IMG/VR virus record: IMGVR_UViG_3300022562_000826
Coordinates: 1-34,998 of that record
Reading direction: 5' to 3' (one strand)
Source of the DNA: a virus
DNA length: 34,998 bases
Position numbers and translations under genes: made by a program. Positions 15,997 to 24,479 of the stretch are shown piece after piece (position 1 is the first letter of the stretch; the number at the start of each line of letters is the position of its first letter). The notes beneath the pieces were generated by a model, which was not told the origin of the DNA, ran no database searches, and worked only from the letters and a program-made list of their open reading frames with translations.

Positions 15997-16298
15997 GGCG
16001 CGTCGCCCTCCCGCACCCGCGCCATGATGTCGGACGCGCGGAGGAAGAGGACCTTGCGACCGTCGACCTCGATCTCGACGCCCGAGAACTTGCCGTAGAT
16101 CACCGTGTCGCCCACCGCCAGGTCGACCGGCCTGACCTTGCCACCGTCGACGGGCTTGCCAGGCCCCACCGCGATCACTTCGCCCATCGTCGGCTTCTGC
16201 TCGGAGATGTCGGGCAGGATCAGCGAGCCGAACTTCTTCTCGCCCTCCGCGACGAGCGGGGTCACGATCACGCGGTCTTCCATCGGGTCCAGAATCAT
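15993..16298 (-). CDS. groES: Co-chaperonin GroES
   Basis: The 101-residue product aligns by eye over its full length to bacterial GroES (usually about 95-100). It opens MEDRVIVTPL, has a mobile-loop region (EGEKKFGSLILPD), then GEVIAVGPGKP, the roof loop, VGDTVIYGKFSGVEIEVDGR and the closing strand. GroES caps GroEL and allows folding in the closed chamber. No groEL is visible, so it would work with host GroEL, probably on the capsid protein, as T4 gp31 does. It is coupled to the terminase stop (ATGA) and lies in the packaging operon, so it would be made with head proteins. Confidence 0.9.
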   Translation of the reverse strand: MILDPMEDRVIVTPLVAEGEKKFGSLILPDISEQKPTMGEVIAVGPGKPVDGGKVRPVDLAVGDTVIYGKFSGVEIEVDGRKVLFLRASDIMARVREGDAP

Positions 16299-17962
16299 GC
16301 GGCTGCTCCCTCACGTTTGAGTTTCTGCTGGACTGCCTTCTTCATGCGCTCGAAGCCGTCGTCGAAGTTCCTGTCCTTCGGCGCCTCGGGCACCTTGCCC
16401 TTCTTCGGCGGCCGGAAGTGGCTCATCACGAGGTAGCGCAGCGCAGCGATCAGGTCGGCGCCGTCAGCGGTGTCGTCGTCCGGGTCGTCGGTCTGCGCGC
16501 GGTCGGCGTCGTTCTTCGGCTTCGGCGTCGGGTAGCGCCACTGCCCGATCTCGAAGAGCAGCCGCGAGTCGGCCATCGGCTGGCCCTCGCTCGCTGCGTT
16601 CTGGCCGCGGTACCAGACCTTGCCATCCTCGGCGACGTCGCGCGAGATCAACAGCGTGCCCCGCTCGAGCATGTTGTTCAGCACCTTCGTGCCGGTCGCG
16701 CGCGCCTTCGACTCGCCACGCACCGCACGCACCCGGAACGGCGAGCCGATGCGCTGGAACTCGACGTTCAGCTCGTTGATGTCGGTCGGGTTCGCGCAGT
16801 CGCCCCACAGCCTCGTGTCGGGCGGCGCGCCCCAGTCGGTCAGGTGGTTGTGAATCCAGCGCGCGCGCACCGAGAGGTTCTGCTTCTGGCTGAAGTATTC
16901 CTTGACGATGTGCAGCCGGCCGGCGTGGTCGACCATCCCGTGGACCAGGCCGAACCGCCAGTACTGGAAGTCGAGCCCGCAGACGTGGGTCCAGCCCTTG
17001 CCACCGCGTGGGCTCGGCTCGTTCGCAGCGAGCGCCATCTCGCGGGTGAACGTCTCGAGGTTGCGGCCCGGATCGTAGGACGACAGCGCGAGGCCGGCAG
17101 GCTTCGCGAACTTGCCGAACAGCCGCGCGGCGAGCTCGGCGGGGTTGCCCGCGAACTGGCGCCGGACGAACTCGATCTGCTCCTCGCCGATCGATGGGTT
17201 GTCCATCAGGCCGGCGTGGCTGCACCACACGTCCGGGTCGGTGCCGCGCTGCCATGACAGGTACATGCGGAAGTACAGCCAGGTCAGCCCAAGCAGCGGT
17301 GTCGCGGTCGTGAGCGTGCGCCCACCGAACCGCACGAGCCGGAGCATCAGCTCGTTCCAGATCGCCTCGGGGTGCTCCTCGTCCATCCAGCAGAAGTGGA
17401 CCTTCGCCGACTGGTAGCTCTTCCGGCCCTGCTGCACCGACTTGCCGACGATGCGACTGAGCGTGCCGTCGTCTGCGCGGACCACGATCGTGCGCCGGCC
17501 TGGCGTCGACTTGAACGGCTCCGGCGCGAGGATGATGCGCTCGGGCGGTATCCACGTGAGCAGCTCGGGGAGCAGGATGTTCTCCCACAGCTCCCAGGTC
17601 AGCGCGCTAGCCCAAATCAGCGCCGAGCCCTGGACCCTGATGTGCGGGTGGCGCTTGAGCGCGACCATCGCGCACTCCTGCGCGCCCTCGGTCGTCTTGC
17701 CGACCTGATTGCCCCAGAACAGGAAGCGGTGGCGGTGCGTGGCGCTGGCGAGGAACGCCTCGACCTGCTTCTCGTGCAGGCTGCCGGGCACCATCTCGCC
17801 GATGTAGCTGCCGTCGTACTCCCAGAGCGTGTCGGTGAAGCTCGGGTCGTGCAGCCGGCGCAGCGGGTCGATCGCGTCCTCCTTGCCGAGCCCGAGCACG
17901 CCACGCAGGCGCTGCCCGATCTGCCACTCGACGAGGGACTCGTGGTCGATCGCTGGGATCAC
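16295..17962 (-). CDS. terL: Terminase large subunit (packaging ATPase/nuclease)
   Basis: The 555-residue protein has the full set of terminase motifs. Walker A is GNQVGKT at residues 84-90. Walker B with catalytic glutamate is VHFCWMDEEH, acidic residues 194-196. The coupling motif TTATP lies at 218-222. The RNase H-like nuclease begins at GLDFQYWRFG (D331), with D388 in WGDCAN and a late acidic cluster DGADLIAALRYL. It cuts concatemers and pumps DNA through the portal. The start is GTG 17962, overlapping the upstream stop (GTGA); longer starts would run through that gene. Confidence 0.95.
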   Translation of the reverse strand: MIPAIDHESLVEWQIGQRLRGVLGLGKEDAIDPLRRLHDPSFTDTLWEYDGSYIGEMVPGSLHEKQVEAFLASATHRHRFLFWGNQVGKTTEGAQECAMVALKRHPHIRVQGSALIWASALTWELWENILLPELLTWIPPERIILAPEPFKSTPGRRTIVVRADDGTLSRIVGKSVQQGRKSYQSAKVHFCWMDEEHPEAIWNELMLRLVRFGGRTLTTATPLLGLTWLYFRMYLSWQRGTDPDVWCSHAGLMDNPSIGEEQIEFVRRQFAGNPAELAARLFGKFAKPAGLALSSYDPGRNLETFTREMALAANEPSPRGGKGWTHVCGLDFQYWRFGLVHGMVDHAGRLHIVKEYFSQKQNLSVRARWIHNHLTDWGAPPDTRLWGDCANPTDINELNVEFQRIGSPFRVRAVRGESKARATGTKVLNNMLERGTLLISRDVAEDGKVWYRGQNAASEGQPMADSRLLFEIGQWRYPTPKPKNDADRAQTDDPDDDTADGADLIAALRYLVMSHFRPPKKGKVPEAPKDRNFDDGFERMKKAVQQKLKREGAAA

Positions 17963-20521: not shown

Positions 20522-20998
20522 CTAGTTGCTGAGGCCGACGATCGGAACGCCAGCCTGCTGGTGTCTGACCCGGTCGTGGATTACGCCGAGTCGCTTCGTG
20601 GGTGGCGGATCGTCTGGCTGACGTTTCCGCATCACCCGCTTCTTGTGATCCCACACGGCGCGCTTCGCGAGCGGGTCGGTGACCACACGCATCACGGCGC
20701 CACAGATCGGGCACGGGCCGTCCTGCAGCTGGTTCCAGTCCGCCGTCTCCGCGACGCGCCTGTCGCCGTAGCTCTCGCTCTCGAGTCGCCTGATGATCAC
20801 GAGCAGCTGTCCGGGCTTCGGGAAGAACTGGCGCTCGGATCGCATGTACTCGACCACAGCCTCTTCGAGGTGCCGCGGGTCGACCTCGCCCAGCGCACGC
20901 CGCCACGTGGCCACCATGTCGTCGCGATCGCCGTCGGGCCGCTTGTAGACGCTCGCCAGGTCCTTCAGCGCGCGCCGCACGTCTAGGTCTGTCACCAT
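20522..20998 (-). CDS. Putative helicase-loader-like replication protein
   Basis: The 158-residue product has an N-terminal helical domain (DMVATWRRALGEVDPRHLEE followed by AVVEYMRSERQFFPKPGQLL) of the kind found in G39P/DnaC-type phage loaders, where the FFPKPxxL motif closes the domain. A CPICG zinc-like pair and a basic C-terminal half follow. It directly follows the initiator gene and overlaps it by 7 bases, the usual initiator-loader order. The call is by pattern and context. Confidence 0.55.
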   Translation of the reverse strand: MVTDLDVRRALKDLASVYKRPDGDRDDMVATWRRALGEVDPRHLEEAVVEYMRSERQFFPKPGQLLVIIRRLESESYGDRRVAETADWNQLQDGPCPICGAVMRVVTDPLAKRAVWDHKKRVMRKRQPDDPPPTKRLGVIHDRVRHQQAGVPIVGLSN

Positions 20999-21681
20999 GT
21001 CTCACCCCCGTCGTCTTTCTGCTCCTCGATCACGCTCTCGAGTATCCGGCGGAAGAGCCGCCCGTTGTACGCCTTCTCCTCGGCGACCAGCCGCGTGACC
21101 GCGATCGTGAGGCACTGGTCGCGGTTCACGCCGTTCGCCTTGCGCCAGACGGCCGCGTCGGTGCCCTCCTGCCCGTCCCAGCCGTAGAGCCCCCGGATCG
21201 CCTTTACGGCCATAGTGCTCAACCTGGCCCATGGGTCGTGCGCGTCGTGCGGCTCGTCGTTCCCATCTCCCTGATCGTTGATAGTAGATCGTAGATCGTA
21301 GATATGGGTCGACGATCCTTCGTCGACGCTTCGACGATCTTTCGTCGAATGCTCAGAAATCGGGTCCAGGCAAGCACTTAGGTTGGGCCTGTCGATCTTC
21401 TGGTGGCTCCAGTTGACGATTTGGATCACCGCCTGGCCTGAGCGTGTCTTGCCGCGCTTGATGACCCCGATGCGCGAAAGCTCGTCGAGGCTTCGTCGAC
21501 ACGTCGTCGAATCGTCGTAAGGGAAGAGCAGGCCGTCGATTAGACGAACGGAATCGATCAGGCGGCCGGCGTCGTCGGCCTGCGAGATGAGCCCGAGGAA
21601 CACGAGACGTGTCAGCGGGTCGAGCGGGCCCAGCTTCTCGTCAGCCCAGAACTCGGGCTTGATGGTGCGGATGCGGGCCAT
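20992..21681 (-). CDS. Replication initiator (winged-helix, lambda O-like organisation)
   Basis: From ATG 21681 the product has 229 residues. It opens MARIRTIKPEFWADEKLGPL, a well known start of phage replication proteins, then a winged-helix domain (TRLVFLGLISQADDAGRL to VIQIVNWSHQ, about residues 20-95). A polar linker (about 105-155) carries the repeats described separately, and a C-terminal helical domain ends in a likely loader-binding region. The ATG is preceded only by a G-run that can be sequestered by upstream RNA, and by the stop of a leader ORF five bases away, so translation is probably coupled. Confidence 0.75.
   Translation of the reverse strand: MARIRTIKPEFWADEKLGPLDPLTRLVFLGLISQADDAGRLIDSVRLIDGLLFPYDDSTTCRRSLDELSRIGVIKRGKTRSGQAVIQIVNWSHQKIDRPNLSACLDPISEHSTKDRRSVDEGSSTHIYDLRSTINDQGDGNDEPHDAHDPWARLSTMAVKAIRGLYGWDGQEGTDAAVWRKANGVNRDQCLTIAVTRLVAEEKAYNGRLFRRILESVIEEQKDDGGETW
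21284..21348. repeat. Iteron-like heptamer array with adjacent AT-richer 7-mers; candidate origin
   Basis: Inside the initiator gene linker, heptamers TCGACGA (21309), TCGTCGA (21320), TCGACGA (21331) and TCGTCGA (21342) alternate in orientation with an exact 11-bp pitch, so they form two 18-bp palindromes 22 bp apart. Directly beside them GTAGATC, GTAGATC and GTAGATA repeat at 21284, 21291 and 21298 in an AT-richer stretch. An origin inside the initiator gene is known from lambda O. The spacing is visible; origin function is inferred. Confidence 0.55.
21482..21510. repeat. Three direct TCGTCGA heptamers at 11-bp pitch
   Basis: TCGTCGA occurs at 21482, 21493 and 21504, each exactly 11 bp from the next and all in the same orientation, within the winged-helix part of the initiator gene. 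A fourth, weaker TCGT start lies at 21515. The word is the same as in the array at 21309-21348. Confidence 0.5.
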
Positions 21682-21683
21682 GA

Positions 21684-21776
21684 CTAAAGCCCCCCCGAAC
21701 GGTCCCGGTTGGACCCAGAGGCGCACGGAGGCAGCGACTGACCGGAGTTGTCGGGGGGGCTATAGAATCGTCTCAT
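21684..21776 (-). CDS. 30-residue leader peptide upstream of the initiator
   Basis: An ATG at 21776 follows a textbook ribosome site (GGAGGTAGCACC before ATG) and opens a 30-codon frame ending at TAG 21684, two bases before the initiator ATG. The peptide is Ser, Pro, Gly and Arg-rich, with a Pro-Pro pair near each end of its first half (YSPPDN, LPPCAS). Its coding RNA holds both arms of an 11-bp stem whose 3' arm is the only purine-rich element before the initiator start. It is best read as a translated leader controlling the initiator; the peptide itself may have no function. Confidence 0.6.
   Translation of the reverse strand: MRRFYSPPDNSGQSLPPCASGSNRDRSGGL
21688..21761 (-). promoter_or_regulatory. 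Long-range stem over the initiator ribosome-binding region
   Basis: On the minus-strand RNA, AGCCCCCCCGA (21761-21751) can pair perfectly with UCGGGGGGGCU (21698-21688), 52 bases later. The 3' arm lies 7 to 17 bases before the initiator ATG. Ribosomes translating the leader ORF would open this stem, so initiator output would depend on leader translation. A smaller GGUCC/GGACC hairpin sits in the loop. Confidence 0.5.
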
Positions 21777-21941: not shown

Positions 21942-22132
21942 GCCTGCCCGCCCTCGATCAGCTTGCCACACGCCAGGCACGCCCACCGCCTGCCGTACTT
22001 CCGCTCCGGCCTGGGCCGCGGGCAGCCGCATCGTTGCGACGCGAGATGCTCCTGCCGCTCGGCCTCGCGCTTGCGGCGCTTGAACTCGGCGATCTCCTCC
22101 GACATGTGACTCTCGTGCCACCTACCGCCCAT
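21938..22132 (-). CDS. Small zinc-ribbon-like protein
   Basis: The 64-residue product starts at ATG 22132 after AGGAGGTGGACC. A basic helix (EFKRRKREAERQEHLASQ) leads to RCGCPRP and WACLACGKL, giving two Cys pairs that could bind one zinc. A start at the Met ten residues on is possible. Such basic zinc ribbons usually bind nucleic acid. It sits between the resolvase and initiator genes. Confidence 0.6.
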   Translation of the reverse strand: MGGRWHESHMSEEIAEFKRRKREAERQEHLASQRCGCPRPRPERKYGRRWACLACGKLIEGGQA

Positions 22133-22487
22133 GGTCCACCTCCTCGAGTGTTAGCTCCAGCCCACGATCCTTCCGGTCGATCTCCTGCGTGACGGCCGCG
22201 AGGCGCACGTTCTTCGCCCGGTCATCGACGATGTAGCCTCTCGTCCGCAGCCAGTCCAGCGCGTGTTTCAGCCTTGCCCGCAGGTTGTCGGCGTCCATCT
22301 CGTTCCACAGCCGGAAGTGCGCCGTGATCTCGACGCTCTCGAACGGCTGCGGCGGCGGCGGCGGCAAGAGCCTGAACAGCTGGCGGTCGTCGCAGTCGCC
22401 GAAGAAGTTCTGCCGCCGCCGGTTCCGCACAGCCCAGTGACCGCGCTCGTTGCCGATGTCCGGCGGCACGGGCAACAGCAGCCTCAC
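22122..22487 (-). CDS. RusA-like Holliday junction resolvase
   Basis: From GTG 22487 (GTGA overlap) the product has 121 residues, the size of RusA. The motif MDADNLRARLKHALDWL (about 64-80) and GYIVDDRAKNVRL (84-96) match the RusA pattern of paired Asp in DxDN and a later DD, which bind the metal ions. NERGHWAVRNRRR near the start matches the N-terminal NxxxHWxxR pattern of the family. It would cut branched recombination or replication intermediates before packaging. It follows the recombination genes. Confidence 0.75.
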   Translation of the reverse strand: MRLLLPVPPDIGNERGHWAVRNRRRQNFFGDCDDRQLFRLLPPPPPQPFESVEITAHFRLWNEMDADNLRARLKHALDWLRTRGYIVDDRAKNVRLAAVTQEIDRKDRGLELTLEEVDHGR

Positions 22488-22801
22488 GTCGTCAGTCTCC
22501 GCGTCGAAAAGAAGCCGGCCAGCTCGGGCTCGCGCTCCATGAGCAGCCGAGCGTACCTGCTCCGGTAGTTGTTGTTCAGCTTGAAGTCCTCTGTCTCGTC
22601 CGGCAGCCCCTCGATGATGCGGTTCCACCGCAGCACCTCGAAGAGCATCCCGATCCCCAGCCGCGTGCGCCCGCGCGCCCTGGCCCGAAAACACATGGAC
22701 CGAAGCTCGTCGTATACCTCCGGGTGGCGCTGGTGAAACCGCCAGAACTGCCGGTCGATCGGCCCCCTGGGCACCGGAAGGAACTCGAACTCGTAGTTCA
22801 T
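22484..22801 (-). CDS. Conserved phage protein of unknown function
   Basis: The 105-residue product from ATG 22801 has FWRFHQRHPEVYDELRSMCF, then GRTRLGIGMLFEVLRWNRII and KLNNNYRSRYARLLMEREPE. I recognise this as a widespread small phage protein in which a FxxFhxxxPxvy start, a FEvlRw helix and a NNxyxxrYaRl motif are constant, though no function is known to me. It lies between exonuclease and resolvase, joined by ATGA/GTGA overlaps. Confidence 0.7.
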   Translation of the reverse strand: MNYEFEFLPVPRGPIDRQFWRFHQRHPEVYDELRSMCFRARARGRTRLGIGMLFEVLRWNRIIEGLPDETEDFKLNNNYRSRYARLLMEREPELAGFFSTRRLTT

Positions 22802-23700
22802 GTCGCCGCCTCCAATTCGCGCTTGAGGTAGGTCCACATCGAGCGGGTGTCCTGCCACCTGCCCGCGACCACGTCGTCGACCATCTGGTCGTAGTCGGCA
22901 AGGTCGATGATTCCGAGGCCGAGCGACTTCCGGGCGATGTCGCAGAAGCTGGTCACCTCCTCGAGCGTCATCGCCTGCGGGTCCGGCTCCTTGCCCTGGA
23001 TCAGGCTCGCGACCAGCTGCGAGCGGAGGTTGCCGTCGATCCGGCCCTCCGGTCCGTAGGCCTTGAGGATCTCCCATCCACGCTCCAGGCCCTTGCAGAA
23101 CTGCTCCAGCCCGACGTCGAGCGCGTCCATGAACTCCTCGTCGCGCATGTAGCGCCGGAGCACCGGCGGGAACGCCGGGTTGTACGCGAGCACGTCCCAC
23201 CACTTCGCGCCCGTGACCCAGATGTTGCCCTGGACCTGCGTGTCCTTCGCGATCTCGTCGTCGCTGCCCAGCAGGTTCACGTGATGCGACGCGCCCCGAC
23301 ACTGGATCTCGAGGCCGCCCTCGTCGCCGACCAGCGCGTCCGGGCTCGCGCCCACGGTGCCGTCGTCGATCGTGCAGAAGCCCACCCGCCGCACGTCGAC
23401 CTCGCGCACCGCCTCGTAGTAGGCGACCGCCTCCTCCTCTAGCTCCGTACCGCGCGCCGTGAACGAGGCGTACATGTCGGCCGAGCCGAGCGCGTTCTCC
23501 CACTTGCTCATCGGGTCGACCGGGTGGATCGGCTGACCCAGCCACCGCTCCGCGAGCAACTCGTTCGCGTAGCCGCCAGCAGCCGCGGAGAGCTTCCGCT
23601 GCTTCGGTGTGATGATGCGGTGGAACTGCGAGGCCGTCGGCTTGCCCAGCCTGATCGCGATCCACTCGGGCGAGCCCTGCGCCATCTCGTGGATGATCAT
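22798..23700 (-). CDS. YqaJ-type/lambda-exonuclease-like recombination nuclease
   Basis: The 300-residue product has the YqaJ viral recombinase layout: QGSPEWIAIRLGKPTAS at the start, RGTELEEEAVAYYE (83-96), then GASPDALVGDEGGLEIQCRG (117-136). Catalytic D121 and E131 are present, but the lysine of the usual E-x-K is Gln (Q133, codon CAG). Downstream QGNIWVTGAKWWDVLAYNP matches the family's QxQxxMWVT-like region. These nucleases resect double-strand ends 5' to 3' and hand the strand to an annealing protein, here the adjacent ERF gene. Activity of the Gln form is uncertain. Confidence 0.8.
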   Translation of the reverse strand: MIIHEMAQGSPEWIAIRLGKPTASQFHRIITPKQRKLSAAAGGYANELLAERWLGQPIHPVDPMSKWENALGSADMYASFTARGTELEEEAVAYYEAVREVDVRRVGFCTIDDGTVGASPDALVGDEGGLEIQCRGASHHVNLLGSDDEIAKDTQVQGNIWVTGAKWWDVLAYNPAFPPVLRRYMRDEEFMDALDVGLEQFCKGLERGWEILKAYGPEGRIDGNLRSQLVASLIQGKEPDPQAMTLEEVTSFCDIARKSLGLGIIDLADYDQMVDDVVAGRWQDTRSMWTYLKRELEAAT

Positions 23701-24479
23701 GCGGACTCCTTCTTCGCCTGAAGCTCGGCGAGCGCCACGTCGAAGCGCGTGGCCGGTAGCTCCTGAATCACGTCCACCCCGAGCTTCTTCAGCCACCACG
23801 TGATCCACTTCGGGCTCGCGTCGATCTCGTGGAGTAGCTGCACCAGCTGCGCCTTCTGCTCCTCGCTGATCGGCTCCGACGAGGCCACCATGCCGTCGAC
23901 GTCGTCGTCCGCGGTCGTGAGCCCGAGCGCCATGATCAGCGCCGCGCGTCGGCCGTAGCTCTGCGTCGCGATCGCACGCTGGGCGTCGTTCATCTGCGGG
24001 TTCGCGCCCGAGCCCTTCGGCAGCCGCGTGCTCGCCGGCCGCTTCGCGCCTAGCTCGTGGTGGATGATGCACTCGTACTCGACGTCGCCGTCGGGCGATG
24101 GCCGCTCGTTCCACGAGTAGCTGAGCCCACACTCGGCGAGCAGCGGCCGGATGTGCGTCGCGATCGTGTCGAGCTTCGCGAAGCTGTACTTCACCTTCGC
24201 CCCGCCCTTCGTCACGTAGTCGACCACGCTCGTCTTCGGGATCGGGGTCAGCCGCCGGTGGAACTCGGCGAGCGCGGCGTTCATCGCCTGCTCGGCCTGG
24301 ATCGTCATCATCCGCTCCTGCAGCGCGACGAGCCGCTCGAGCGACTCGACCCCGTCCGCGCCCTGCTCCAGCGCCAGCTCCATCAGCCTGCCGACGTCTG
24401 GCGTCGCCATCGCGACCTGCCGCTGTCCTGCCACCTCCACTGCGTTGCCACCGATCTCGATCTGGTCGGCGTCGTGCAT
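23697..24479 (-). CDS. erf: ERF-family single-strand annealing protein
   Basis: The 260-residue product carries the ERF domain: ALAEFHRRLTPIPKT, KVKYSFAKLDTIATHIRPLL and AECGLSYSWNERP, followed by a strand with IIHHELGAKRPAS and the typical MNDAQRAIATQSYGRRAALI. ERF proteins form rings and anneal complementary strands, allowing RecA-independent recombination and genome circularisation. It pairs with the exonuclease next door (ATGA overlap). Start ATG 24479 has GAGGGGG upstream. Confidence 0.9.
   Translation of the reverse strand: MHDADQIEIGGNAVEVAGQRQVAMATPDVGRLMELALEQGADGVESLERLVALQERMMTIQAEQAMNAALAEFHRRLTPIPKTSVVDYVTKGGAKVKYSFAKLDTIATHIRPLLAECGLSYSWNERPSPDGDVEYECIIHHELGAKRPASTRLPKGSGANPQMNDAQRAIATQSYGRRAALIMALGLTTADDDVDGMVASSEPISEEQKAQLVQLLHEIDASPKWITWWLKKLGVDVIQELPATRFDVALAELQAKKESA

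Follow-up and report, generated by a model that had tools for sequence, protein, structure and literature searches.

What is the role of a strictly phased set of short repeats embedded in the gene of a predicted viral replication initiator? A first-pass annotation had proposed that seven copies of TCGTCGA or its reverse complement TCGACGA, together with adjoining AT-richer heptamers, form a replication origin inside the initiator gene, bound on one helix face as in phage lambda. The window analysed here is the whole virus record (34,998 bp), and the genes that bear on the question are as follows.

16295-17950: terminase.
20522..20998, minus strand: probable helicase loader, overlapping the initiator stop (phrog_2289, E 9e-4).
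20992..21681, minus strand: replication initiator CDS, 229 aa (PHROG matches and AlphaFold2 model).
22122..22550, minus strand: RusA-like Holliday junction resolvase of the same replication/recombination block (phrog_34, E 4e-6).
23697..24479, minus strand: Erf-like single-strand annealing protein of the same block (PF04404, E 1e-11; phrog_155, E 2e-29).

The N-terminal domain of the initiator matches the PHROG 'replication initiation protein' profiles 16167, 1408 and 2149 (E 1.1e-28, 3.6e-24 and 1.3e-20), which places it among the initiators of the MARIRTIKPEF type, with all 20 of 20 aligned members matching. A Pfam scan of the CDS gave no match, and no solved structure matched it in sequence. 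An AlphaFold2 model built from 20 family members has a confident winged helix (residues ~20-100), in which helix 62-71 is the predicted recognition helix, followed by a disordered linker (pLDDT <50 at 114-148) and a helical C-terminal part. Searches with this fold returned generic winged helices only (Fur, CodY, MarR and ORC winged helices, Z ≤7.6), so no closer family can be named. Just upstream of the initiator start lies an inverted repeat, possibly a leader structure, whose 15-nt arms CTAAAGCCCCCCCGA and TCGGGGGGGCTATAG (21684-21698 and 21751-21765, 52 nt apart) carry runs of seven C/G; an Rfam scan of the whole record found nothing.

All seven heptamers proved to be present inside the initiator CDS, in two blocks flanked on one side by a short tandem tract.

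21482..21510, plus strand: putative iteron block I, three TCGTCGA starting at 21482, 21493 and 21504, in 11-bp steps.
21309..21348, both strands: putative iteron block II, four TCGWCGA starting at 21309 (minus), 21320 (plus), 21331 (minus) and 21342 (plus), in 11-bp steps.
21284..21304, minus strand: tandem heptamers, a candidate DNA-unwinding element 3' of block II (lag-7 run and composition).

Block I covers codons 58-67, which encode the loop before the predicted recognition helix and the first half of that helix, and block II covers codons 112-125, mostly in the disordered linker, as are nearly all of codons 112-133 when the tandem heptamers are included. Counted over the whole record, the heptamer is common (41 copies compared to 13 expected from dinucleotide shuffles), so its frequency alone says little, but its 11-bp phasing is unique: the record holds five heptamer pairs 11 bp apart, all five in the initiator gene, and among its 247 TCNNNGA sites the only 11-bp chains are the four from 21309 and the three from 21482. 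Codon repetition lacks the power to explain this phase, as the annotation had argued, with 11 not being a multiple of three. Synonymous-codon permutation reached seven sites or five phased pairs in 0 of 200,000 trials; with codons drawn from the usage of the record, seven sites were reached 14 times and five phased pairs once.

The tandem heptamers, which read ATCTACG ATCTACG ATCTAC on the coding strand (GTAGATC/GTAGATA on the plus strand), are likewise real: their longest lag-7 match run is 13, a length that 25 in 20,000 synonymous shuffles attained. The tract at 21280-21304 has 36% GC, compared to 67.7% for the record, of whose 25-mers 0.05% are equally AT-rich. Two other features attributed to the array did not survive. 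The '18-bp palindromes' of block II each consist of two 7-bp arms with a 4-bp centre that is not symmetric, and the orientation of TCGWCGA, itself a 7-bp near-palindrome, is set only by its central A/T. In the wider family of initiator genes, adjacent TCGWCGA centres are the same in 38 cases and opposite in 44. Since the central base is random across the family and is the sole cue to orientation, the alternation and the palindromes in block II are incidental. A GC-skew plot, suggested as a check, has no switch at 21.3 kb, because skew in this record follows gene direction (transcription).

That family was assembled from viral contigs, bacterial genomes and phage records, and comprises 261 initiator genes, or 162 after dereplication, from viruses and prophages of several bacterial phyla; being relatives, they are non-independent samples. 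A scan of genome contigs with the window protein alone gave no match; the homologues there were recovered by profile search. When identical 6-mers in the 162 genes were counted by distance and compared to synonymous shuffles, lag 11 stood out (955 compared to 70 expected, z 76), along with lags 22 (515 compared to 55) and 33 (300 compared to 87), and a separate excess at lags 5, 7 and 8 and their multiples came from the tandem tract. At least one identical 6-mer pair at lag 11 occurs in 120 of the 162 genes (38.5 expected), and 44, about a quarter, are without an exact-match phased block. The phased sites form two peaks, ~120 bp before and 60 bp after a conserved HQ motif that marks the end of the winged helix; one block coincides with the loop before the predicted recognition helix and with the beginning of that helix, the other with the disordered linker. 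The commonest pattern is 3+4 sites, as in the window. The distance between blocks I and II keeps phase modulo 11 (n=20 nonredundant, R 0.535, p 0.003), more weakly with one gene per gap length (p 0.08), which is suggestive of helical phase locking between them.

What these sites share is a grammar rather than a sequence. Among the 16 flanking dinucleotides, TC..GA is by far the most phased at 11 bp, with gaps of 2 and 3: TCN3GA gives 227 pairs at this distance compared to 27, and TCN2GA 178 compared to 8, in the 162 genes, 107 of which have at least two phased TCN2-3GA pairs (4.2 expected). In the 7-bp unit, the central base is almost uninformative, and the spacer positions are far less informative than TC and GA, which return one step on. 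Phased pairs reach 4.19 per kb in the gene compared to 0.047 upstream and 0.069 downstream, that is, they are 60-90 times rarer in the flanks. TCGWCGA, put forward as a new unit, is one among several (TCGWCGA, TCGCGA, TCGSCGA, TCASTGA and TCCGGA), the main ones fitting TC-N(2-3)-GA. A tree from which the block I columns were excluded shows at least ~15 changes of unit class, compared to 34 with shuffled labels, and the layout stays. An identical phased 6-mer is common to blocks I and II in 54 of 66 genes, compared to 30 (maximum 37) under random pairing of blocks between genes, and units matched between the two blocks are the pattern that one co-evolving binder would leave. The in-gene layout that we define here for MARIRTIKPEF-type initiators, two TC-N2/3-GA blocks at 11 bp with a 3' tandem repeat, is found in the window gene.

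Tandem heptamers like those of the window occur at the matching place in homologues. Of 70 family genes, 64 have a tract that begins on the 3' side of block II, at a median of 22.5 bp past the start of the last site. Read on the coding strand, the repeated unit is in most cases GGGGAACA, GGGAA or GGGAACA, and in the clade of the window CTACGAY or CAACGAC; it is purine-rich on that strand in 92 of 110 genes, though not in the window's clade (CTACGAY), and the tree requires at least 11 switches of its period among 5, 7 and 8. For the family as a whole the instability of the tract is only moderate, on average exceeding that of 73% of gene windows, so that the term 'unwinding element' is firm, by base composition, for the present record alone.

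Individual homologues illustrate how the layout outlives its unit. The two nearest viral homologues first found (L001 and L002, 52-53% identity over ~135 residues) keep the 3+4 or 3+3 layout at near-identical gene positions with other units (TCCGGA and TCGCGA, respectively): L001 has TCTGGA, TCCGGA and TCCGGA followed by four TCCGGA, all at 11 bp, L002 has TCTCGA, TCGCGA and TCGCGA followed by three TCGCGA, and in each the array is followed by CTACGAC heptamers. Three plus four TCGCGA precede GGGGAACA octamers in the isolated mycobacteriophages Butters and Bernal13, and TCACTGA-type sites precede GGGAACA heptamers in Corynebacterium phage PSonyx. Loss of the sites from homologues that retain the protein sequence, which would have told against the annotation, is not what we found; the layout persists across homologues whose proteins have diverged and whose units differ. 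The array is real, non-random and conserved in layout.

Some members depart from this plan or extend its distribution. HNH nuclease-like domains are inserted in the initiator linker of L101 (2301-2660), L102 and L115; read by eye, phased TCGTCGA, TCGACGA and TCGCCGA resume in 11-bp steps beyond the insertion in L101. Some members from Pseudomonas phages (L111, L115) are without clear TC..GA blocks and have a repeated CTGATTC near the linker instead. Initiator homologues also occur on plasmids, in 40 records from Klebsiella, Bifidobacterium, Streptomyces and others (among them NZ_CP130687.1, NZ_CP008829.1 and NZ_KM406416.1), some annotated as DnaT-like; these are possibly phage-plasmids using the same type of origin.

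Could such an array arise with no function at the DNA level, through repeat slippage or through selection on the protein, as in a low-complexity linker with R-R-x-L-D-E repeats? Slippage does expand short tandem repeats, and the linker encoded by block II and the tandem tract is indeed disordered. Block I, however, lies in the folded winged helix and carries the same unit as block II, protein-preserving synonymous shuffles abolish the signal, a step of 11 is not a multiple of 3, and the spacer bases are less informative than the TC and GA that recur at the next site. This origin for the array is highly improbable, and is largely refuted by the family counts for lag 11, for TC..GA and for matching between blocks. 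It is just as improbable that the array serves partition (parS-like) or packaging and lies in the initiator gene by chance. Mycobacteriophage parS loci do consist of direct 8-bp repeats (PMC7157519), but no parA or parB was recognised among the genes scanned, which were part of those in the record, the terminase gene lies elsewhere (16295-17950), and in unrelated genomes the layout goes with the initiator family.

Somewhat better placed, but still unlikely, is an operator, at which the initiator or another phage regulator would bind within the gene and control transcription of the gene or operon, with no start of replication there. Phased near-palindromes are typical of operators too, and the winged-helix folds nearest to that of the initiator in the fold search are mostly those of repressors, such as Fur and CodY. 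Yet the sites lie 170-370 bp inside the CDS, with no sigma-70-like promoter found nearby, and are usually paired with the 3' tandem tract; moreover, they occur in initiator genes and not in those of regulators, and the flanks are without such sites.

We return to a phage replication origin, iterons plus unwinding element, embedded in the gene of its own winged-helix initiator, which, judged from sequence, is very probably what the array represents. The proposal in its joint form (an in-gene origin, sites sharing one helix face, a heptamer unwinding element and a lambda-like plan) is strongly supported by the conservation of the layout; against an origin speak the lack of a GC-skew switch, the 44 genes without an exact-match phased block and the modest instability of the tract in the family. 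The best explanation is a gene-internal origin of lambda type, in a new variant whose grammar extends to a large family. A plausible mechanism can be drawn from the present sequence facts and the analogy with lambda. The winged-helix domain of the initiator would bind the 7-bp TCGWCGA, or more generally TC-N2/3-GA, in blocks of three and four. Because the sites are one helical turn apart, all subunits of a block would lie on one DNA face, where they would pack side by side and probably cooperatively. Blocks I and II would probably be joined by bending or wrapping of the DNA, and the resulting nucleoprotein complex would melt the AT-rich tandem repeats next to block II on its 3' side. There the host helicase could be delivered to the opened strand, either by the C-terminal part of the initiator or by the probable loader from the overlapping next gene; helicase loading by the C-terminal part would fit the DnaT domain found at the C-terminal end of some family members.

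The likeness to lambda is one of plan. In lambda, the origin lies in the middle of gene O, and the smallest unit that unwinds consists of two iterons and the AT-rich tract beside them (PMC7466680). Like the lambda ori in gene O (PHROG 277, 'replication initiation O-like'), the window has multiple iteron-like sites inside the initiator gene, adjoined just 3' by a tract of differing composition, AT- or purine-rich; the coding strand of this tract is purine-rich in lambda (AAAAGAAAAAAGAAAAG) and in most of the family. The next gene encodes a loader in both, P in lambda and the probable helicase loader in the present record. Lambda iterons, in contrast, form one block of four 18-bp inverted repeats in steps of 20, 24 and 23 bp, whereas the present array has 7-bp (or 6-bp) units in strict 11-bp steps and two blocks, one of them over codons of the DNA-binding domain itself. 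Membership of the lambda O family was considered and rejected: direct profile comparison of the initiator with lambda O gave no match (hhalign probability 0.2%), 18-19-bp inverted-repeat iterons are absent, and inverted pairing is not conserved. The sole bridge between the two proteins is a shared phrog_5810, which is indirect.

Plasmid iteron origins such as those of RK2, R6K, pPS10 and P1 also combine winged-helix initiators, phased direct iterons and an adjacent unwinding element, but their iterons are mostly 17-22 bp long, about two turns apart and outside the rep gene. The present array shares with them the winged-helix initiator, the phased iterons and the adjacent candidate unwinding element, and differs in having sites about one turn apart inside coding sequence. 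In mycobacteriophages Miko, Rachaly and Jeeves, repA and its flanks suffice for replication, and an origin was suspected in or next to repA, with no repeats found in the region searched (PMC7157519); their RepA is described as pMSC262-type. Our full-text literature search, mostly without subscription journals, found no earlier description of the array, and the papers it returned held no binding or origin assay on this family.

A more general proposal, for which we judge the odds to be even, is that a widespread phage initiator family has its origin within its own gene and that a single grammar governs it: TC-N2/3-GA every 11 bp, two helically phase-locked blocks and a tract of 5-, 7- or 8-mers, in which the DNA that encodes the loop and the start of the recognition helix would also be a site of that helix, so that origin and initiator specificity would form an inseparable module, re-tuned repeatedly with its grammar fixed. 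Peptide repeats such as GREGKG, GNREQGT and STNDRR in these initiators may then be explained as the translation of DNA sites, and the family would offer a natural experiment in which a DNA-binding domain co-evolves with a site overlapping its own codons. Outside a few models, the origins of most phages are unmapped. A grammar readable from sequence would place a candidate origin to the base, and make it proposable and testable, in a large class of phages, with candidates in phages and prophages of Pseudomonadota, Actinomycetota, Gemmatimonadota, Planctomycetota, Verrucomicrobiota and others, including the isolated mycobacteriophages Butters and Bernal13.
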